In this document: positions 2,845 through 9,800 of the stretch, one piece after another
How the letters are laid out: every line of letters starts with the position of its first letter
How positions within the stretch are numbered: position 1 is the first letter of the stretch
Source: Desulfuromusa sp.
GTDB lineage: Bacteria; Desulfobacterota; Desulfuromonadia; Desulfuromonadales; Geopsychrobacteraceae
Direction of reading: 5' to 3'
DNA: 9,800 bases
Assembly (NCBI GenBank): GCA_029933365.1
Contig: JAOZOH010000105.1
Span: 1-9,800 of the forward strand
The notes under the pieces: model-generated
Told to the model about the DNA's origin: nothing
What the model saw: the letters and a program-made list of their open reading frames with translations, nothing else
Database searches by the model: none
Made by a program: the position numbers and the translations under genes

Positions 2845-3558
2845 TCAATAGATATCCAGCTTTTCGTTGAGTAACGATTTACTGGTCGGCTCCCCCCGCG
2901 AGTGAGCCATGCTTTCAAGCAGCACATTTCCACCAATTGCGGCGGTCTTTTTGACCAGTGCTTCAGCTGCTTTTCCATCACGATTGCGAAACGCATCAAG
3001 AAGCTTATCATGCTCAGCTACAGAAATAGCCATCCGCCCTTCGACCGAAAGCGATGCCATTCGCAAACGGCTGAACTTCATTCCCAGCTGCTTAATCAAG
3101 TCGTATAATTTACTATTATCTGCCGCCTTGAGAAAGGTATCGTGAAATTCATGATGGATTTTATAAAATGTTTTTACATCACCAATACTTGCCAACTGCT
3201 TAAGTCGCTCGTTGATCGACTCCATCTTTGCTAGTTCTTTTTCCGACAAGTTTTCTGCCGCCAGTTCTGCAGCATAGCCTTCTAGAACACTCTTGACCGC
3301 ATAATACTCCTGAACATCACGCTCCGAAAGGGCTGCAACAACAGCACCTTTTCGTGGTACAACCGTCAGGTAACCTTCGGACTCTAATTGGCGAAACGCT
3401 TCACGAATTGGGGTCCGGCTGATCCCAAACTGCTCCGCCAGCTCAGGCTCCGCTACCTTTTCACCCGGTTTAAGATCTCCCTTAAGAATTGCTTCACGGA
3501 TTGTCTCCAAAATTTTTTCGCGTAAAGTTTGGTGTCGCTCAATCTGTTTAGTTTTCAA
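2845..3558 (-). CDS. GntR-family transcriptional regulator, FCD (FadR-like) subfamily
   Basis: This 237-residue regulator has a winged helix at about 10-75 (LREKILETIREAILKGDLKPG, then ELAEQFGISRTPIREAFRQL, with the wing at YLTVVPRKGAVV) and an all-helical FCD ligand domain at about 80-220. The start chosen is TTG at 3558 (MKTKQIERHQ) because AGAGGAG lies seven bases before it; the frame stays open for 20 more codons upstream, but those run through the promoter and operator and lack a ribosome binding site. In the FCD metal pocket H139 (EFHDTF) and H183 (AEHDKLL) are present, the position usually Asp appears to be H135, and the last expected His appears to be T205. FCD members commonly sense small organic acids; the ligand here is unknown. 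Two operators overlapping its own promoter suggest autoregulation. Confidence 0.92.
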   Translation of the reverse strand: MKTKQIERHQTLREKILETIREAILKGDLKPGEKVAEPELAEQFGISRTPIREAFRQLESEGYLTVVPRKGAVVAALSERDVQEYYAVKSVLEGYAAELAAENLSEKELAKMESINERLKQLASIGDVKTFYKIHHEFHDTFLKAADNSKLYDLIKQLGMKFSRLRMASLSVEGRMAISVAEHDKLLDAFRNRDGKAAEALVKKTAAIGGNVLLESMAHSRGEPTSKSLLNEKLDIY

Positions 3559-3748: not shown

Positions 3749-4753
3749 ATGGATTCGTTGAAAAAAGTTAAATATTCCCTGACAACATTGTTTATTCTTA
3801 TCGGTGGGGGGACTATCGGATACGCCACTATTGAGGATTGGGGCGTTTTCGAAGCGCTCTACATGACAATTATTACTCTGGCAACAGTCGGATATAGCGA
3901 AGTTCATACGCTGTCGCACCAGGGACAGATATTTACCATCCTTCTGATTGTGTTCGGGGTTGGAACCATTGCTTACACGATTGGCTCAATGATTCAATTT
4001 ATGGTGGAAGGGCAACTTCAGCAAATATTGGGGAGAAAAAAAGTGCAAAAAAAGATCAGCCGCCTGCAGGGGCACTACATTATCTGTGGCTATGGTCGCA
4101 TTGGTCGTCTGATCAGCCGCGAATTTGCGTCTAAACCGCTGCCGTTTATTGTCATAGAAAACGATCCTGAACGATGTCAATGCCTTGGGGAAGATAACTG
4201 CCTGTTTATTCAGGGGGATGCAACCCAGGACGAGGTTCTAGAGCGAGCGGGAATCCACCAGGCAAAAGGTTTGGTGACAGTAGTCACCTCCGATGCAGTC
4301 AACGTATTTATTACTTTGACTGCACGCGGGATGAATCCCAAGCTATTTATTATGGCTCGCGCCAGTGAAGAGGGGGCTGAAGTCAAATTGATGCGCGCCG
4401 GAGCCAACAAGGTTGTTTCTCCATACACAATTGGTGCTTCGCGCATGGCACAGGCAATTTTACGCCCTTCAGTCGTCGACTTTATCGATATTGCAACGGG
4501 TTGGAAAAATATTGAACTGCAGATAGAGGAAATCCCCGTTGCAGCTGAATCCCGTCTGGTCGGTAAAGACCTGAGCCAGTCAGGTATTCGTAAAGAGCTG
4601 GGGCTGATTATTGTCGGCATCAAACATGACGGGCAAATGATTTTTAACCCGGCAGCCAACACGATTATCGAAGCAGGCAATATTCTGATTGCCCTCGGCG
4701 AATACCCAGAAATCCAAAAACTCGAAATCATTGCAGCGACTAAACCTTTATGA
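3749..4753 (+). CDS. Two-TM potassium channel with cytoplasmic RCK (TrkA-N/TrkA-C) domain
   Basis: This 334-residue inner-membrane channel subunit would form tetramers. TM1 is about 10-28, the pore helix about 33-45, the filter T46-V-G-Y-S50-E, and TM2 about 60-86 with glycines G70 and G72 as likely hinge positions. The RCK N domain starts at about 107 with HYIICGYGRIGR (G114, G116, G119) and the acidic E137 of IEND after beta strand 2, fitting a nucleotide-binding RCK. A TrkA-C domain covers about 245-330. The layout is that of MthK and GsuK-type channels. The filter carries Ser where TVGYG/TVGFG is standard. AGGAG is five bases before the ATG. The next gene overlaps by four bases (ATGA), so the two are co-translated. 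Gating ligand is unknown; nucleotides or divalent cations are usual for the family. Confidence 0.93.
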   Translation: MDSLKKVKYSLTTLFILIGGGTIGYATIEDWGVFEALYMTIITLATVGYSEVHTLSHQGQIFTILLIVFGVGTIAYTIGSMIQFMVEGQLQQILGRKKVQKKISRLQGHYIICGYGRIGRLISREFASKPLPFIVIENDPERCQCLGEDNCLFIQGDATQDEVLERAGIHQAKGLVTVVTSDAVNVFITLTARGMNPKLFIMARASEEGAEVKLMRAGANKVVSPYTIGASRMAQAILRPSVVDFIDIATGWKNIELQIEEIPVAAESRLVGKDLSQSGIRKELGLIIVGIKHDGQMIFNPAANTIIEAGNILIALGEYPEIQKLEIIAATKPL

Positions 4754-5538
4754 TGGCGTCATCACTCTATATTTACACTCCGGCCCACCTGCTTCCGGCA
4801 CGGCTCCCCTTTCTCCTCAATCGCAGGTTGCAGCCTGAAGTTGCCTGCCAGGAAGTCCAATTAGAGAAGCTCGATTTTGCACAGCTTGGTGATTGTGCGG
4901 ATCAACTGCAAGAACAAGGTCTCAGCACCACTTTGCATGCCCCCTTTACCAACTTCAACCCCGGTAGTAGTAAAAAACGTACCCGCAACACATCACTGCA
5001 GATTGCGGATATGTCATTGCAGTTAGCGGAAAAGCTGCACGCCCGGCGGATTGTTTTTCATCCTGGACTGGCCTATGGATCTGCAGGAAAAAAACTGGAT
5101 ACCTGGGTGCAAAACAATCTCACTTTCTGGCCAGAATTTCTAGCTCGTGCAGCTGAATTCAACTGCACCATCTGTATTGAAAATATTTATGAAACAACTC
5201 CTGATCCCTTTATTCAGCTATTTTCCATGATGGATTCACCACAGCTGGGTCACGTTTTTGATATTGGCCACTGGAACCTGTTTGGTAGCGGCAAACTGGT
5301 TAACTGGTTAAATGAAATGGCACCCTATCTGAAACACATGCACCTCCATGACAATCATGGCGAACAGGACGAACATCTTGCCATCGGTCGGGGCTACGTC
5401 CCCTTTTCAACCCTGTTCAAATGGTTGCAGACAGCCAATTCCCTACCAACCATCACTTTAGAAAATCATACCCTGCCCGATATCGAGCATTCCCTAAAAG
5501 TTATCCACAAATATCTACCTGAGATCTCAAAACAATAA
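4750..5538 (+). CDS. TIM-barrel protein of the AP endonuclease 2 / xylose isomerase-like family
   Basis: This 262-residue predicted metal-dependent TIM barrel begins at an ATG overlapping the channel stop (ATGA); a second ATG follows at once. No clear ribosome binding site is visible, so translation is probably coupled to the channel gene. Metal-ligand-like residues sit at strand ends as in this superfamily: H63 (LHAPF), H104 (VFHPG), E144 (ICIENIYE), D171 and H174 (FDIGHWN), H198 and H200 (MHLHDNHG), D207 and H209, and E238 (TLEN). Length and motif order fit the sugar phosphate isomerase/epimerase and endonuclease IV superfamily (PF01261). Sequence alone does not separate a sugar isomerase from a DNA-repair nuclease; the short length and lack of endonuclease IV signature text favour the former. 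The functional link to the channel is unknown. Confidence 0.88.
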   Translation: MMASSLYIYTPAHLLPARLPFLLNRRLQPEVACQEVQLEKLDFAQLGDCADQLQEQGLSTTLHAPFTNFNPGSSKKRTRNTSLQIADMSLQLAEKLHARRIVFHPGLAYGSAGKKLDTWVQNNLTFWPEFLARAAEFNCTICIENIYETTPDPFIQLFSMMDSPQLGHVFDIGHWNLFGSGKLVNWLNEMAPYLKHMHLHDNHGEQDEHLAIGRGYVPFSTLFKWLQTANSLPTITLENHTLPDIEHSLKVIHKYLPEISKQ

Positions 5539-5757
5539 AAAAACCCGTTGCAATGTTAAGCAACGGGTTTTTGGTGATTTTATATGGAGCAGGTAATCAG
5601 GATTTCCCCAGAAGCCCTTTACCTTCATGATTCTCTTTGGCATTGTGGAGCCAGATGTGACATTGATCTAATCCGTAAAGGCTTAACCCAACCAGTAAGA
5701 CTGGAAGGAAGTTAGCAGCAATCGCACCGGAGAAGCAGTAGAAAGCGAAGAAGGCGG
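5527..5757. repeat. Direct repeat, copy 1 (source side of a duplication)
   Basis: This segment aligns without gaps to 9570-9800, same orientation, offset 4043 bp. About 14 of 231 positions differ: 8 in the 70 bp outside the three-TM gene and 6 in the 161 coding bases. It begins inside the last codons of the TIM-barrel gene (TCA AAA CAA TAA) and covers the terminator and the 3' part of the three-TM gene. The right limit is set by the window edge, so the repeat may be much longer. Confidence 0.95.
5539..5572. terminator. Bidirectional rho-independent terminator
   Basis: Stem CCCGTTGC (5544-5551) and GCAACGGG (5560-5567) with an 8-base loop, preceded by seven A and followed by five T, lies between two converging genes. 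It closes the rightward channel/TIM-barrel operon and the leftward three-TM gene. A near-identical copy is present at 9582-9615. Confidence 0.9.
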
Positions 5758-6064
5758 TACGATAACCAAGATGATTCCACTTTTGGGTTGGTTGAGCATC
5801 GTTAGCCATGGCGGTCAGTGTCAGGATAGCTGAGGAAAAACAATAAACAGCCAGGGCAACGCTGATCAGATAAGCTGGAGGAGGGCAACCGAGTAATTGA
5901 CGGACGGGCTCGGAGGAGGCTGCAAACAAATTAAAGTCTTTAAAAGTAAAAGCACAGATGCTGATCAGGAGAAAAGCAACCAGGCTCATCAAAGTATGGT
6001 TTTGAACCTTGGATTCGGTATTTGATTTGGTGTTTTGAATTGTTGCTGCTTTATAGTATCCCAT
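5597..6064 (-). CDS. Three-TM membrane protein of unknown function (copy 1)
   Basis: This 155-residue protein is not assigned to a family. The start is ATG at 6064 (MGYYKAATIQ): GGAGG lies five bases upstream in ATGGAGGAAATGATG, whereas the open frame reaching 6130 runs through the promoter. Hydrophobic segments are about 25-43, 64-86 and 102-133, so it is an inner-membrane protein. The short soluble tail ends HNAKENHEGKGLLGKS. Cysteines C36, C60, C75, C110 and C135 are present without any CxxCH or CxxC heme or metal motif. It lies downstream of the cytochrome b gene on the same strand, but a terminator and over 400 bp separate them; a sigma-54-like promoter lies just upstream. A second copy runs off the right edge with one amino-acid difference in 52, mainly silent changes, so the product is under selection. 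A role in the cytochrome module is inferred only from position. Confidence 0.78.
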   Translation of the reverse strand: MGYYKAATIQNTKSNTESKVQNHTLMSLVAFLLISICAFTFKDFNLFAASSEPVRQLLGCPPPAYLISVALAVYCFSSAILTLTAMANDAQPTQKWNHLGYRTAFFAFYCFSGAIAANFLPVLLVGLSLYGLDQCHIWLHNAKENHEGKGLLGKS

Positions 6065-6113
6065 CATTTCCTCCATGAGTTTGTTTGTTATTTCGTTGTT
6101 GCTATCTACATAC

Positions 6114-6129
6114 AGCATCAGCCATGCCA
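6114..6129 (-). promoter_or_regulatory. Candidate sigma-54 (-24/-12) promoter of the three-TM gene
   Basis: Read leftward, TGGCATG-GCTG-ATGCT fits TGGCACG-N4-TTGCW with exact GG-to-GC spacing and two differences. Transcription would start near 6103, about 40 bases before the ATG. A sigma-54 activator gene was not seen in the window. Confidence 0.5.
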
Positions 6130-6195
6130 AGTCTGATAAAAAAATAAACTCATAGAATATCAGCTAGTTATAAATCATTCTTGGTGGAGGGCCCT

Positions 6196-6266
6196 TTTGC
6201 TGAATGAGAGGATTCCTGTCCCGCAGGAATATTCCTGCGGAGTCAGAATGGTAGCAATTCAGCAAA
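6196..6266. repeat. Nested palindromic element
   Basis: Outer arms TTTGCTGAAT (6196-6205) and ATTCAGCAAA (6257-6266) are perfect inverted repeats. They enclose a perfect 20-bp palindrome CCGCAGGAATATTCCTGCGG (6221-6240). A competing hairpin, ATTCCTG (6212-6218) with CAGGAAT (6224-6230), uses part of the same palindrome, so the structures exclude each other in RNA. It lies upstream of the predicted start site of the three-TM gene and in no gene. Confidence 0.7.
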
Positions 6267-6307
6267 CCCGGAATTATTTCGAATAGCGCTAGTTGTGCAG
6301 CGTTGCA

Positions 6308-6375
6308 GTAAACGCGGGACTGTCCCCAGGTCCATCGGGGGCTGTCCCAAGTGTTTACGGGCTATGAAACCGTAA
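6308..6375. repeat. Imperfect inverted repeat with GTAAAC ends and GGGAC/GTCCC cores
   Basis: GTAAAC (6308-6313), then GGGACTGTCCCC (6316-6327), mirrors GGGGGCTGTCCC (6337-6348) and GTTTAC (6353-6358). A short hairpin TTACGG (6355-6360) with CCGTAA (6370-6375) overlaps the right end. The GGGACTGTCCCC core is like intergenic palindromes seen in Geobacteraceae-type genomes. No transposase is near. Confidence 0.6.
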
Positions 6376-6426
6376 AGCTTGGACACTTCCGGGTTTCCTA
6401 TATTGGATTCGACAAGCAGGAAATTA

Positions 6427-6465
6427 AAAAGCGGGCGGATTCTTTTCAGAAGCCGCCCGCTTAAG
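6427..6465 (-). terminator. Rho-independent terminator of the cytochrome c/b operon
   Basis: Stem AAGCGGGCGG (6429-6438) with CCGCCCGCTT (6453-6462), extended inside by TTCT/AGAA, is followed in the leftward direction by TTTAATTT. It sits about 35 bp after the cytochrome b stop. Confidence 0.88.
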
Positions 6466-6497
6466 AGTGGAGATATTTGGAATTTATTTAGATGCAA

Positions 6498-7187
6498 TCA
6501 AGAATTAACAGTGGGGTTACTCCCTTTTTCTTCCTCCTCATGCTCATGCTCTTCCTCTTCCTCTTCCCAACCTGTCCACATGGTCTTGATATGTTCCGTT
6601 GGGGTATGTCCCAAGGTTGCTAAATAAACATGAGTTGGTATAAAAGCGATCAAACAGCACGCCAATAAAATATGGAGCCCCGCCAGAAGTTTTACTCCAC
6701 CGACCATAACAATCAGCTCACGTAATGGATCTACGTTAATCAAAAAGAGCCCCGTCAAATTAACCAGTGGCATCATGACAAACATGATTGCCAGATAAAC
6801 AGACTTCTGCATCGGGTTAAACTTGCTATCAGGGGTCGGATGATGGGGATTATCCCAGCCAAGAAAATAGGTTAAAAAGTAGAATTTTGCTTGCCGTAAT
6901 AAACCGCTCTTCAAATCTTCAACCCTTGGGACATACAGGTTCGCCATACTTCGAGCAACAAAAGTATAATAGAAGAACCACAAGGAAAAGGAGATCGCCA
7001 CCATAATTCCGGCTGCATTATGAAGATAAATCGCCGATTTATAGCTGCCAAGAAACGAAACATATTCGGGGAAACGAATCTGTGCACCAGAAACTGTCAG
7101 GGTAACAATCCCAAAAGCATTCAGCCAGTGCCAGATACGAACCGGTATGGGTTGTAAATAAATTTGATCTTGATGTTCTTCAGCCAT
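6498..7187 (-). CDS. Diheme b-type cytochrome, four-TM (cytochrome b561 / FdnI / HydC-like)
   Basis: This 229-residue inner-membrane protein has the layout of the prokaryotic cytochrome b561 (Ni,Fe-hydrogenase/formate dehydrogenase gamma) superfamily. Four hydrophobic spans are at about 22-38, 52-76, 128-150 and 165-190. Likely heme-ligand histidines are H20 (RIWHWLN), H56 (YLHNAAG), H172 (GLHILL) and H186 (PTHVYLA), which would place two b hemes across the membrane. It should exchange electrons between the quinone pool and the periplasmic heptaheme cytochrome encoded just upstream; the two genes are 11 bp apart and its AGGGG ribosome binding site overlaps the stop codon of that gene. The C-terminus is odd: residues 208-220 are almost all Glu with H214 and H216, a possible metal- or partner-binding tail. 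Specific donor and acceptor are unknown. Confidence 0.92.
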   Translation of the reverse strand: MAEEHQDQIYLQPIPVRIWHWLNAFGIVTLTVSGAQIRFPEYVSFLGSYKSAIYLHNAAGIMVAISFSLWFFYYTFVARSMANLYVPRVEDLKSGLLRQAKFYFLTYFLGWDNPHHPTPDSKFNPMQKSVYLAIMFVMMPLVNLTGLFLINVDPLRELIVMVGGVKLLAGLHILLACCLIAFIPTHVYLATLGHTPTEHIKTMWTGWEEEEEEHEHEEEEKGSNPTVNS

Positions 7188-7198
7188 GAGTAATCCCC

Positions 7199-8242
7199 TT
7201 AGTGACGTCTGTTTTTACGGGTCAAGAAACGCAGCGTTCCATGACCAATCGGCATGATAAATCCACCACAGATAATAATTAAGCCAATGATATTCAGTGC
7301 TGTACTTCGACCACTTCCGGTCATATAAAAATTAGGAGTTCCAAACAAAGCATCTAGAACCGCACCCTCCTCAACTGACATCCGCTGATAAGCTCCGGTT
7401 TCCGTCGGGAAAGCAAAGTAACTAGTCTGCATACTTCCCGGTCCGGCCGCATGACAGAAGGTACAATCAAAACGATTATCCAGCGTGCTCAGGTCGTGAG
7501 AAATCTCGCTGGGAACCAATGTTCCACCTAGATGCAAAGCTTTATAAGCCGGATTATGGTTGAAAGAACGTAATTCAGGCAAAGAGACATGGTTATCCCC
7601 ATTGATGTCAATTAGACTTTCTATCTCTTTGTCTCCACTATACTCTTTCAAATCAGCATAACTGGAGTATTCATAGTTACCTAATTTCGCTGATTTACTC
7701 TTTTGAGCTATAGTTAAAACGACTTCATAGCTCTCCGCAGAGGTATGGCAGGTAATACAGGGAAGCTTGGCAATATGCAGCGGAGCTTGCACCAACCATC
7801 CCGAATGACTTTCTATAACATCTTCTTCCTCATGACACTGGTTGCATTGCTGGTTCATCTCGGGGCCCGACACAGACTCAAGTCCACGTACCTGATGAGG
7901 ATTATGACAATCGAGACAGGCTGCATTTTCTGCGTGGGCAGTCGCCATATACTCACTGCCAAGTTCCTCATGACAATCGAGACAGTCAGCACTGGTAACA
8001 GCTTCGCCATCGTCAGGATGCTCATCAGTTACAGACTCATGACAAGTGACGCAACCCATCTCAGAATGAACGGTATGGGTGAATTTATCCGCATCAATAA
8101 ACAACTCGTCACCTACCTCATCAGCATCACCGTGGCAGCCTAGACAATCGTCCATCTCCATTGCACTAACTGATAGCGGGACAGCAAGGATCATCAGTAA
8201 TAAAAAACTCCACAGATAATTAACACTACAATCCATTTTCAT
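7199..8242 (-). CDS. Membrane-anchored heptaheme c-type cytochrome with an EF-hand loop
   Basis: This 347-residue exported protein carries seven CxxCH heme sites: 33-37, 64-68, 87-91, 109-113, 133-137, 162-166 and 260-264. A signal peptide or N-terminal anchor (about 8-27, ending VSA) and a C-terminal membrane helix (about 314-340) hold it on the periplasmic side. Extra His residues (H56, H59, H75, H103, H116, H146, H156) could give bis-His coordination. Between hemes 6 and 7, a 95-residue heme-free stretch has D212-I-N-G-D-N-H-V-S-L-P-E223, an exact EF-hand calcium loop pattern. Two ATGs (8242 and 8236) share an AAGGG; the first is used here. With the adjacent cytochrome b it resembles the c and b parts of Cbc-type quinone oxidoreductases of Geobacter, but split into two genes. 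The partner and direction of electron flow are inferred, not shown. Confidence 0.93.
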   Translation of the reverse strand: MKMDCSVNYLWSFLLLMILAVPLSVSAMEMDDCLGCHGDADEVGDELFIDADKFTHTVHSEMGCVTCHESVTDEHPDDGEAVTSADCLDCHEELGSEYMATAHAENAACLDCHNPHQVRGLESVSGPEMNQQCNQCHEEEDVIESHSGWLVQAPLHIAKLPCITCHTSAESYEVVLTIAQKSKSAKLGNYEYSSYADLKEYSGDKEIESLIDINGDNHVSLPELRSFNHNPAYKALHLGGTLVPSEISHDLSTLDNRFDCTFCHAAGPGSMQTSYFAFPTETGAYQRMSVEEGAVLDALFGTPNFYMTGSGRSTALNIIGLIIICGGFIMPIGHGTLRFLTRKNRRH

Positions 8243-8313
8243 GTACTTACCCTTTTAATCGAGCTGTTTACGTCAAATTGGAAATACCCATGTTAAAAGC
8301 TACAAAATAAACC

Positions 8314-8330
8314 TTGAAAATAATTTTCAA
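8314..8330. promoter_or_regulatory. 17-bp palindrome upstream of the cytochrome operon, Fur-box-like
   Basis: TTGAAAAT-A-ATTTTCAA is a perfect palindrome centred at 8322. Its inner 15 bases match the 7-1-7 Fur pattern TGATAATNATTATCA at all but one symmetric pair. It lies 72-88 bp before the cytochrome c start and overlaps a poor -10-like TATATT (8334-8329). Iron control of a heme-rich operon is plausible but unproven; AT-rich palindromes arise by chance. Confidence 0.42.
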
Positions 8331-8362
8331 TATAATTAATAGCAGAAAAAACCAAAAAGCGC

Positions 8363-8394
8363 AAAAAAAGAGATGGGTCTCCCATCTCTTTTTT
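8363..8394. terminator. Rho-independent terminator after the small membrane-protein gene
   Basis: A 13-bp stem AAAAAGAGATGGG/CCCATCTCTTTTT with loop TCT has A and T tracts on both flanks, so it can stop transcription in either direction. It lies about 75 bp beyond the stop at 8468 and separates the receiver/small-protein unit from the cytochrome operon. Confidence 0.88.
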
Positions 8395-8467
8395 AACTTA
8401 GCGCTATCCAGTCCCTAAAGTAAACAGCATATATCCGACTTGTAAGCTTGTTAAAGCTATTCCTAAC

Positions 8468-8704
8468 TCAGTGTGTAAGGGGCGTTTTATCTTTCTTTTT
8501 CCCACTAAAAAATCCCTTGATTATGCCAAACCCCAGAGCGAAAACCGGGATAAGTTGGAGAAAAATAATCAATCCACAGATACCTAAAAACAGGTAGACC
8601 AACATCATACTGTTATCTTCTCTGGCTCCGGCATCAGCTAAAGCAGGAACGATTGTGGATAAAAATACGATTCCAGGGAAACTGTATTGGACTATTTTTT
8701 TCAT
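8468..8704 (-). CDS. Small exported membrane protein of unknown function
   Basis: This is a 78-residue protein. The start is ATG at 8704 (MKKIVQYSF) because GGAG lies six bases upstream; the frame extends 14 codons further but without a ribosome binding site. Residues 1-23 look like a cleavable signal peptide (basic KK, hydrophobic core, ALA then D), and about 34-63 is one long or two short membrane spans, followed by the basic tail SGKKKDKT. The mature protein would be about 55 residues with its basic end probably in the cytoplasm. No known domain or cofactor motif is seen. It follows the TM-receiver gene by 38 bp on the same strand and precedes a terminator, so these two form one unit. It could be a small accessory subunit of the nearby cytochrome system, inferred only from position. 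Confidence 0.75.
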   Translation of the reverse strand: MKKIVQYSFPGIVFLSTIVPALADAGAREDNSMMLVYLFLGICGLIIFLQLIPVFALGFGIIKGFFSGKKKDKTPLTH

Positions 8705-8742
8705 GATGAACTCCTTTTTTCTTTCTATGTATTGTTCTTTAA

Positions 8743-9390
8743 TCAACTCACTGCTGGTTGAAAAGTTTCAAAAGCACATTCCACTGCGGAACGTAACTCT
8801 TCATTATCTTCCTGATTATGTGGTTTCAACGCATGATAGAAGATTCCATCTTCACGAATCCGCTTCAAGGTTTCTAAAGAGCTATCATCCGACACCAGGA
8901 TGATACGCAGGTTTTTATTACACTTACGCATCAAAGCAATAACATCGACCGAGGCAATTTTTTCTTCGAACGAATCGCCCAGAATGACGATTGGTTCATT
9001 TTTCTGCACTATTTTCGCAATGGCGTAAGCAGCCGATGCTGTAGTCTCAACTTCGTAGTGTGAATTCTCAAAAAAAGCCGCCAACTCTTGCCGTGCTGCT
9101 TTATCTCGATCAGCGATCAGTATTTTTCTCGTTTTCATATCGGTTTCTCCATTTCTGATTAATGTTTTCTGGGTTGATTGTAATTGTCTCTTGGCTGATA
9201 TATTTTTAACTTTGGCAGCCAAAAACATTGCCCCCGGAACACTCTGGAAACTAATAATGGCTATAAAGAAAATCATAAAAAATTTCGTAAGTGGGGATAT
9301 CTGCAAACCAAGATCACAAAGCATAAAACTTCCCGTCAGCAGCAAAGCCATGGGAAGAGAAATTAATTTGAAGTTATTGTATTGATTCAT
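8743..9390 (-). CDS. Two-TM membrane protein fused to a receiver (REC-like) domain
   Basis: This 215-residue protein starts at ATG 9390, six bases after AGGAG. Hydrophobic spans are at about 8-28 and 36-59, followed by a basic linker. From M85 a receiver-like domain begins (MKTRKILIADRD) and runs to about 208. Aligned by eye, the phosphoacceptor is D139 (VILGD), S167 replaces the usual Thr/Ser, and K189-P190 is conserved; the usual second acidic residue of the Mg pocket is R95 (ADRD). There is no DNA-binding or enzymatic output domain. M85 (codon 9138-9136) has its own GGAGA seven bases upstream, so a soluble receiver of 131 residues could also be made. It could tune the membrane electron-transfer module, but that is inference. 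A sigma-54-like promoter lies upstream. Confidence 0.8.
   Translation of the reverse strand: MNQYNNFKLISLPMALLLTGSFMLCDLGLQISPLTKFFMIFFIAIISFQSVPGAMFLAAKVKNISAKRQLQSTQKTLIRNGETDMKTRKILIADRDKAARQELAAFFENSHYEVETTASAAYAIAKIVQKNEPIVILGDSFEEKIASVDVIALMRKCNKNLRIILVSDDSSLETLKRIREDGIFYHALKPHNQEDNEELRSAVECAFETFQPAVS
9136..9150 (-). promoter_or_regulatory. Internal ribosome binding site and start within the TM-receiver gene
   Basis: GGAGA (9150-9146), seven bases, then ATG (9138-9136) sits exactly where the receiver homology begins. It could allow a separate soluble receiver product in the same frame, or mark the place where two genes were fused. Confidence 0.5.
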
Positions 9391-9426
9391 CACATTCTCC
9401 TGAATTTGTTCTTTGTTTATAACTAA

Positions 9427-9442
9427 AGCAACCTACATACCA
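9427..9442 (-). promoter_or_regulatory. Candidate sigma-54 promoter of the TM-receiver gene
   Basis: Read leftward, TGGTATG-TAGG-TTGCT matches the TGGYACR-N4-TTGCW pattern with one mismatch and correct GG-N10-GC spacing. Transcription would begin near 9416, leaving a 26-base leader with the AGGAG ribosome binding site at 9401-9397. Confidence 0.58.
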
Positions 9443-9541
9443 ACTTTTACAAATCTCACATAAAATTATTTATCTAATAAATTCAAATAGTTACAGAAAG
9501 CTAAGAATTACTAGATAAAATAGCGGCTTCAAGAACTATAA

Positions 9542-9564
9542 AAGATTCCTACTGGACAGGAATC
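9542..9564 (-). terminator. Hairpin, possible second terminator of the copy-2 three-TM gene
   Basis: AAGATTCCT and AGGAATCTT form a perfect 9-bp stem around a 7-base loop, followed leftward by TTATAG. It shares GATTCCTGTCCNNNAGGAAT with 6211-6230 in opposite orientation, so it may equally be a dispersed repeat. Confidence 0.5.
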
Positions 9565-9581
9565 TTCCTTCAAAACAATAA

Positions 9582-9615
9582 AAAAACCCGTTGCCATGTT
9601 GAGCAACGGGTTTTT
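9582..9615 (-). terminator. Terminator of the copy-2 three-TM gene
   Basis: This copy of the hairpin at 5539-5572 (CCCGTTGC/GCAACGGG) has changes only in the loop, so termination function is preserved. Confidence 0.85.
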
Positions 9616-9639
9616 AGTGATTTTATCTGGATCACCTGA

Positions 9640-9800
9640 TCAGGATTTTCCCAGCAACCCTTTACCTTCATGATTCTCTTTGGCGTTGTGGAACCAGATG
9701 TGACATTGATCTAATCCGTAAAGGCTTAACCCAACCAGTAAGACAGGAAGGAAGTTAGCAGCAATCGCACCGGAGAAGCAGTAGAAAGCGAAGAAGGCGG
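9640..9800 (-). CDS. Three-TM membrane protein of unknown function, copy 2 (C-terminal part)
   Basis: Only the last 52 codons and the stop are in the window. They match residues 104-155 of the copy at 5597-6064, differing only by Leu to Phe at position 139 (IWLHN to IWFHN). The other nucleotide changes in this part are silent, including a two-base change between Leu codons. Reading frame and stop are intact, so it is probably a working paralog. Its start and promoter lie beyond the right edge. Confidence 0.88.
   Translation of the reverse strand, partial: AFFAFYCFSGAIAANFLPVLLVGLSLYGLDQCHIWFHNAKENHEGKGLLGKS

Follow-up and report, generated by a model that had tools for sequence, protein, structure and literature searches.

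The closest described system is CbcBA/Cbc5 of Geobacter sulfurreducens (GSU0593 cbcB, GSU0594 cbcA). In published reports, CbcB is a PF01292 b-type cytochrome encoded beside CbcA, a heptaheme c-type cytochrome that carries PF09699 and is membrane-bound (PMC7726332); CbcBA oxidizes menaquinol near -0.2 V (PMC12307469); and the Cbc5 complex comprises cbcEDCBA, with the c-type cytochromes CbcC (OmcQ) and CbcD (PMC11434368). A further report views CbcA-OmcQ as an outer-membrane conduit (PMC6246609), contrary to the inner-membrane view of CbcBA that we adopt here. A literature search covering titles and abstract openings, with subscription papers mostly outside it, returned nothing on the duplication or the receiver described here. 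BccR regulates cbcBA. The main CbcBA paper is reportedly that of Joshi et al. 2021.

Here we describe a CbcBA-type locus in a window of 9,800 nucleotides, the whole stretch of DNA analysed, from a Desulfuromusa-related bacterium in which, judging from sequence comparison with relatives, the accessory genes are probably doubled around one cytochrome pair. We favour, with a probability of about 0.8, a reading in which one CbcBA-type module was anciently duplicated in tandem, its upstream copy lost the cytochromes, and the copies of its three-TM gene, TM3, were recently converted. Loci of relatives are numbered from L001, and upstream and downstream copies are designated u and d.

Results

The features of the window are as follows.

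4750..5538, plus strand: convergent neighbour encoding a TIM-barrel protein, CbiR-like (PF01261; CbiR 71.6 bits, below the family cut-off of 105)
5527..5596, no strand: terminator region of TM3 copy d, common to the convergent gene 4750-5538, and left end of the repeat (sequence, repeat search)
5538..6137, minus strand: putative gene-conversion tract, resembling the upstream copy of L001, the closest relative, rather than its positional counterpart there (informative sites)
5597..6067, minus strand: TM3 copy d, a three/four-TM protein of 156 aa (translation)
6115..6129, minus strand: sigma-54-type site before TM3, TGGCATGGCTGATGC (motif scan)
6424..6462, minus strand: terminator-like hairpin with a T-run, 3' of cytB (read from the sequence)
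6498..7187, minus strand: b-type cytochrome, cytB, CbcB-like (PF01292 E 1.9e-26, 93.3 bits, cut-off 30.1)
7199..8242, minus strand: heptaheme c-type cytochrome, cytC, CbcA-like, with a hydrophobic C-terminal segment (seven CXXCH; PF09699 and others; PDB 28pb_A)
8468..8704, minus strand: small protein with a signal-peptide-like start and a TM helix (conserved in relatives)
8743..9393, minus strand: membrane-anchored receiver (RR), in which a receiver domain is fused to a TM segment and no output domain is present (Response_reg E 1.5e-9)
9428..9442, minus strand: -24/-12 site of sigma-54 type ahead of the receiver gene, TGGTATGTAGGTTGC (motif scan)
9570..9639, no strand: 3' flank of TM3 copy u, with its terminator-like hairpin (sequence, alignment)
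9640..9800, minus strand: last 52 codons and stop of TM3 copy u, the copy of the upstream unit, continuing past the window (51/52 residues as in copy d; dS 0.13)

We read these genes as one putative CbcBA-type quinol-to-cytochrome module, ordered receiver, small protein, heptaheme c and cytB, then TM3 with its own promoter-like site, and liken it to CbcBA by domains and gene order. Both parts of the CbcBA core are present: the PF01292 b-type cytochrome, whose His20, His56, His172 and His186 are among the invariant alignment columns, and, 11 bp away, the adjoining heptaheme c-type cytochrome with doubled CXXCH (PF09699), for which membrane binding is predicted from the hydrophobic C-terminal segment, itself kept in relatives. 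Residues 31-303 of cytC align with the heptaheme 'Cytochrome c' of PDB 28pb (E 1.3e-89), all seven heme motifs falling in the aligned part; 28pb covers the soluble part only (278 aa), and among the relatives named for it are those of Geotalea uraniireducens (77% identical) and Geobacter sp. FeAm09 (60-61%). The CbcC (OmcQ) and CbcD cytochromes of Cbc5 are absent from the window cluster, cytC being the sole CXXCH gene in 5597-9393. Unlike Cbc5, the cluster carries the receiver, small protein and TM3 alongside, and these accessory genes are doubled in relatives. Neither the small protein (8468..8704) nor TM3 has a Pfam or NCBIfam match at E 0.001. The TIM-barrel gene is outside the duplication and is the left border of the module; of 17 loci, 9 have a relative of it next to the module.

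At a minimum length of 30, a repeat search of the window found a single family of direct repeats, pairing 5527-5757 with 9570-9800 (231 nt, spacing 4043, 94%), and a direct count gave 217/231 identical positions. Search and count together bear out the first-pass annotation, which had claimed a 231-bp repeat in the same orientation at an offset of 4043 with about 14 mismatches. Of the 14 mismatches, eight are in the non-coding part, 5527-5596 (70 bases), and six in the coding part, 5597-5757 (161 bases). Similarity ends sharply on the left, at 5527/9570, and on the right runs to the window edge. The match is not attributable to chance. What is repeated is the 3' end of another TM3 gene with its terminator, and the partial copy-2 protein (52 aa) has one residue (L/F) unlike copy 1. 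The module composition given by that annotation also stands, with seven CXXCH in the c-type protein, Ni_hydr_CYTB in the b-type cytochrome and Response_reg in the receiver; its statement that the copy directly abuts the module needs a slight correction, since 176 bp, including the promoter-like site at 9428-9442, lie between the receiver start (9393) and the repeat.

What lies to the right of the window was bracketed from relatives rather than read from the window's own flank, and low-scoring matches of two query proteins (kinase, SDR) were dropped from the comparison of their loci. L001, L002, L004 and L006 each have another receiver and another small gene upstream of a second TM3, in the same order as in the module, and L039 shows receiver-small-TM3 followed by the contig end. 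The assemblies of many relatives are fragmented drafts, and contigs break at tandem repeats (that of L004 stops in cytB, that of L039 in TM3); of the five loci above, the ones reaching far enough, none has cytochromes between the small gene and TM3 of the upstream unit. Within L001, 1013-1241 matches 3049-3277 (small gene) and 1279-2133 matches 5308-6162, the second stretch starting 36 bp past the cytB stop and spanning TM3 and its terminator. L002 has a similar homology jump from the small gene to just past cytB, and the jump in both loci marks a deletion scar left by cytC-cytB loss. The upstream copies of L001, L002 and L006 have the TM segment and the receiver as separate, overlapping genes.

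A strong cytB match is single-copy in 21 of the 22 family genomes that have one, drafts among them; the exceptional genome has two cytB on different contigs. No cytB was found in G021, the genome of L039, a result that carries the caveat of a fragmented draft. Across the class, the matches listed include nine genomes with two or more cytB places, and in none of the nine are two such places closer than 20 kb. The first-pass annotation had read the repeat as a probable tandem copy of the entire module, with another, diverged set of cytochromes following just past the window. The repeat geometry suits that reading, as does the doubling of receiver and small gene in relatives, which takes the duplication beyond one gene; the upstream units and the scar support an old tandem duplication. 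They do not support a second cytochrome set. With cytochrome-free upstream units in 5/5 relatives, a deletion scar in two of them, single strong cytB genes across the family and no close cytB pair among the listed matches of the nine multi-cytB genomes, we regard such a set as very improbable.

Only TM3 and its terminator are doubled within the window, and TM3 can stand outside a wider unit: L003 and L009 have it directly before the receiver with no RR'/small', and L087 and L089 have it upstream of the module. These observations would suit a recent duplication of TM3 alone, placed before the receiver in the window's lineage. The wider unit is nevertheless present in L001, the closest relative, as well as in L002, L004 and L006, and the window groups with L001 in both relevant trees, its receiver with the L001 downstream copy (97/95) and its small gene likewise with the L001 downstream copy (99/98 with L001 and L004), which makes a TM3-only event very unlikely.

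Trees and synonymous rates support the old tandem duplication with later conversion. The RR tree sets upstream copies (99/95) apart from downstream copies (88/86), a split implying that the duplication is older than the sampled species; counting against this reading, the sole receivers of L003 and L009 are placed near the upstream clade. Receiver and small copy pairs in relatives have dS from 1.1 to saturated, and the L001 copy pairs stand at 2.04 (RR), 1.85 (small) and 1.24 (TM3), set against 0.13 for the window TM3 pair. Because the receiver and small copies are old and the window TM3 pair is young, the 94% identity provides no date for the duplication. Among u/d pairs with finite dS, dN/dS is 0.04-0.21, which indicates that both accessory sets are maintained by selection.

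In the TM3 tree, which includes one window copy of only 156 nt and is flagged for long branches and open forks, the window copies pair with moderate support (94/71) inside the L001-upstream clade (100/99). L001u and L001d differ at 130 sites; there, window d is like u at 96, like d at 24 and like neither at 10. Over their final 159 nt the window copies share 96.2% identity, and window-u and L001-u share 91.8%. TM3 identity most likely reflects later TM3-to-TM3 conversion, not a recent 4-kb duplication. By eye, divergence in the 70-base non-coding part is about that between window-u and L001-u, and the concentration of mismatches there suggests that the latest conversion may have missed the terminator. 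Synonymous distance between the window and L001 varies by gene (small 0.22, cytC 1.49), so recombination may reach beyond TM3. In L006, the two small genes pair together in the tree, another point against the favoured reading.

It may instead be the downstream TM3 of L001, and not that of the window, that was replaced. L001's downstream TM3 is closest to the upstream TM3 of L004 (87.6%), which would fit a window that kept the old state without conversion and an L001 that received the TM3 of an L004-like strain. We consider this unlikely, as the window copies resemble each other more than window-u resembles L001-u, despite an RR split that precedes the species, and their dS is low. Conversion in the window and replacement in L001 may both have occurred.

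The sigma-54 scan, based on the consensus, scored 10 positions and required GG and GC unchanged. On both strands of the window alone it gave three sites versus 2.0 expected from single-base shuffles; the significance of the sites comes only from their conserved position in relatives. Among 16 receiver gene copies, 13 carry such a site 35-64 bp ahead of the start (0.11 expected), and among 18 TM3 copies, 14 carry one 55-89 bp ahead of the gene (0.31 expected), counts that are not independent, the loci being related, and that include some hand-set starts (for example in L007, L014, L015, L016 and L053). Sigma-54 activator genes lie upstream in L006. These conserved positions make sigma-54 control of the accessory genes probable.

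The receiver, small protein and TM3 occur alongside CbcB in most loci examined. Among L075-L094 (n = 20), TM3 is found in 16, the small gene in 16 and the receiver in 11; L075-L089 and L094 were chosen by cytB, L090, L091 and L093 as exceptions, L092 was already known to have TM3, L084 is truncated by a contig end, and the first 16 relatives of the survey had been found via TM3. Both residues of the conserved phospho-acceptor pair (Asp/Lys) are present in the window receiver, and 26 homologs have the Asp in 13 cases and the Lys in 21. A structure model of TM3 (mean pLDDT 67.2, pTM 0.49) had no Foldseek match in the PDB within E 0.001, the best reaching E 2.0, and so offers no fold-based clue to function; TM3 sequence relatives were likewise absent from the PDB up to E 1. 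An assignment of TM3 and the small protein to CbcD and CbcE, from the gene order of L075, was dropped because CbcD is described as a c-type cytochrome (PMC11434368).

A second locus in the same genomes combines pentaheme c, Fe-S, NrfD and sensor genes with a TM3 paralog, and has small and receiver paralogs too. It appears to be Cbc4-like. Its redox subunits are unrelated to those of the module (Fer4_11, NrfD in L051), and its TM3 is 28-37% identical.

Discussion

The locus is tempting to read as an array of respiratory complexes. Comparison with relatives corrects this: the duplication is old and half deleted, and gene conversion has probably refreshed the identity of its copies. We propose that the module was duplicated in tandem in an ancestor and that the upstream copy then lost both cytochrome genes, leaving RR'-small'-TM3' next to an intact module. 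Beyond the right edge of the window, the remainder of TM3' would be followed by small' and RR', with no cytochromes. Trees, informative sites and synonymous rates suggest that gene conversion recently homogenised the two TM3 genes of the window, which would explain the near-identity of the edge repeat.

From their families, cytB would oxidize menaquinol and the heptaheme c would pass electrons into the periplasm, while the receiver, small protein and TM3 may be accessory membrane proteins co-produced with the cytochromes. Doubling the accessory set could alter accessory dosage or divide labour, leaving the number of respiratory complexes unchanged. It is possible, though rather doubtful, that these three proteins make up a membrane subassembly, portable and independent of phosphorylation, which docks on CbcBA and NrfD-type quinol:cytochrome complexes and gates or assembles them; the cytochrome-free Desulfuromusa set would then be a regulatory or titrating copy, its TM3 kept alike by conversion because both sets serve one complex.

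The accessory set, two of whose members (small protein and TM3) lack a family, stands behind sigma-54-type sites and has a putative role in low-potential quinol oxidation. Locus L006 belongs to Desulfuromusa kysingii, a named isolate.

A probable old, half-deleted duplication around a respiratory module

We read the right edge of the window as belonging to a respiratory module of known kind whose tandem duplication is old and half deleted, and the edge itself as probably altered by gene conversion; we put the probability of this reading at roughly 80%. The window holds one direct-repeat family of at least 30 nt, pairing 5527-5757 with 9570-9800 (231 nt, spacing 4043 nt), and a direct count gave 14 mismatches, 8 in 70 non-coding and 6 in 161 coding bases. 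The search and count bear out the same-orientation repeat described in the first-pass annotation (231 bp, offset 4043, about 14 mismatches). Copy 2 includes the 3' end of a second TM3 gene on the minus strand (TM3 being the three/four-TM protein encoded at copy 1), with 1 difference in 52 visible residues; the window's end cuts this copy and is the right limit of the similarity. The left end of the repeat lies inside a terminator region common to TM3 and the convergent gene at 4750-5538.

Genes of the module in the window, in module order
8743-9393 (start 9393), minus strand: receiver (RR) with N-terminal membrane segment, first gene
Between receiver and cytC, minus strand: small membrane protein (small), without a Pfam or NCBIfam match at E 0.001
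Between small and cytB, minus strand: heptaheme c-type cytochrome (cytC)
Between cytC and TM3, minus strand: b-type cytochrome (cytB), PF01292
Downstream of cytB, minus strand: TM3, last gene, likewise unmatched in Pfam and NCBIfam at E 0.001

The CbiR-like convergent gene lies to the left of the module, and 9 of the 17 loci compared have a relative of it next to the module. The window also carries a GC-rich, REP-like imperfect palindrome (82-168; 38-nt arms, 84% complementary) and, at about 6260-6350 between TM3 and cytB, a CTGGGGACAGTCCC-like sequence whose counterpart is absent from L001 (L-numbers denote loci in relatives, G-numbers their genomes).

By description, the cytochrome pair agrees with the G. 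sulfurreducens proteins CbcB (PF01292) and CbcA (heptaheme, PF09699) as presented in PMC7726332. Other papers report CbcBA activity near -0.2 V (PMC12307469), propose transfer from Desulfuromonadales to Seep-SRB2 (PMC10553843) or instead regard CbcA-OmcQ as an outer-membrane conduit (PMC6246609). A solved structure, cytochrome 28pb_A, aligns with the window cytC; proteins from Geotalea and Geobacter are among the named relatives of this structure.

The neighbouring unit in relatives

Searching a TM3 alignment against genome contigs yielded 17 loci, onto which ten window proteins were mapped. A single module, RR-small-cytC-cytB-TM3, occurs in L005, L007, L010 (whose contig begins just ahead of RR) and L013-L017. 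In Desulfuromusa the order is RR'-small'-TM3'-RR-small-cytC-cytB (L001, L002, L004, L006; primes mark the upstream unit), with a terminal TM3 in L001 and L002 and none at that place in L006; the L004 contig ends within cytB. L039, from another genome, shows RR'-small'-TM3' as far as its contig end. L008, L011 and L012 have TM3 in stretches lacking this module; in L008 (8921-10462) and L012 (1486-3039) TM3 genes lie beside a secreted-looking protein of 275-279 aa, in stretches without cytochromes.

The first-pass annotation took the 4.04-kb module to be duplicated whole, with a second, diverged cytochrome set to the right of the window. Relatives do retain an old duplication including receiver, small and TM3, but the second cytochrome set is very unlikely, since all five loci showing the neighbouring unit (L001, L002, L004, L006, L039) lack cytochromes in it. 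Alignment of the L001 upstream unit runs to the small gene and resumes at 1279 on sequence that starts 36 bp beyond the cytB stop, the mark left by deletion of cytC-cytB; a comparable jump is seen in L002. Also against a second set, a strong cytB match (E 1.6e-58 or better) occurs in 22 of 44 family genomes and is single in 21 of these, although several family genomes are fragmented and a copy may be missed in any one. The remaining genome, G011, has two on separate contigs, and G015 and G035 have weak matches. The b-type gene is widespread, with 150 of 244 class genomes matching at E 1e-40.

One G011 locus, L093 (contig C31, 4273-4938), has a cytB of this family with no cytC, TM3, small or receiver nearby and with kinase-like and NtrC-like open frames upstream. 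G041 (L090), G039 (L091) and G037 have cytB and no TM3 match; in L090 and L091 a CbiR-like open frame, judged by first residues, still follows.

Age of the copies and probable conversion of TM3

The receiver tree groups the upstream copies of L001, L002, L004, L006 and L039 in a single clade (branch supports 99/95) and sets the downstream copies apart (88/86); the duplication is therefore older than these species. Counter to a clean separation, the L006 copies pair in the small-gene tree (82/87). Copies are 67-86% identical in DNA (receiver and small in L001, L002, L004 and L006; TM3 in L001 and L002). Between upstream and downstream copies dS is 1.08-2.39 or saturated for receiver and small, and 1.24 (L001) and 0.74 (L002) for TM3; dN/dS is 0.04-0.21 where dS is finite. 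The window's TM3 pair has a dS of 0.13 (52 codons). L003 and L009 have the order TM3-RR-small-cytC-cytB, their sole TM3 lying ahead of their only receiver, which falls near the upstream clade (85/96); this arrangement may reflect a different fate of that duplication or a hybrid formed by recombination.

The downstream TM3 of the window shares 91.9% identity with the L001 upstream TM3 (dS 0.37) but 81.5% with its positional counterpart, the L001 downstream TM3 (dS 1.08). Among 130 sites in 5538-6137 that differ between the L001 copies, 96 are upstream-like, 24 downstream-like and 10 neither; the TM3-cytB interval (6138-6497) favours neither copy (29, 27 and 27). The TM3 tree pairs the two window copies (94/71), with 8 of 15 inner branches open and a long-branch warning applying elsewhere in the tree. 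In our reading of these sequences, the upstream TM3 was probably copied recently over the downstream one in the window lineage, which would explain the noted repeat without a recent module duplication. The L002 copies pair too (82/64), so homogenisation of TM3 may be a recurring event.

The accessory set and its promoter-like sites

Among 37 cytB loci including the window, a sample selected in part through TM3, the accessory genes TM3 and small each lie on the same strand within 4.5 kb in 33, and an accessory receiver does so in 28. Because the phospho-acceptor Asp is kept in only 13 of 26 receivers (S, N, E, G or M in the other 13), receiver phosphorylation is probably dispensable in general; the window receiver retains the Asp. 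The receiver's membrane segment, which weakly resembles the small protein in a six-sequence search (best E 9.6e-8, L053; window 0.04), is a gene of its own in the upstream units of L001, L002 and L006.

A second locus with TM3 paralogs 28-37% identical occurs in family genomes (L051, L052, L054, L056-L059, L061, L062), and small and receiver paralogs are both present in 7 of the 9 stretches. The L051 locus encodes a pentaheme c, a TAT-signal Fe-S protein, NrfD and a 2-TM sensor; L057 appears similar by its open frames.

Scanning with a sigma-54 consensus placed a -24/-12 type site 55-89 bp ahead of TM3 for 14 of 18 gene copies, against 0.31 expected. For the receiver gene, 13 of 16 copies have one at 35-64 bp (0.11 expected). 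The copies are related rather than independent, and the L002 downstream receiver has no such site. The window alone has 3 sites on both strands against 2.0 by chance, a count near chance; the evidence for promoters is their conserved position in relatives. In L006 an NtrC-type regulator and a hybrid kinase lie ahead of the module, along with a second sigma-54 activator-like protein that is shorter.
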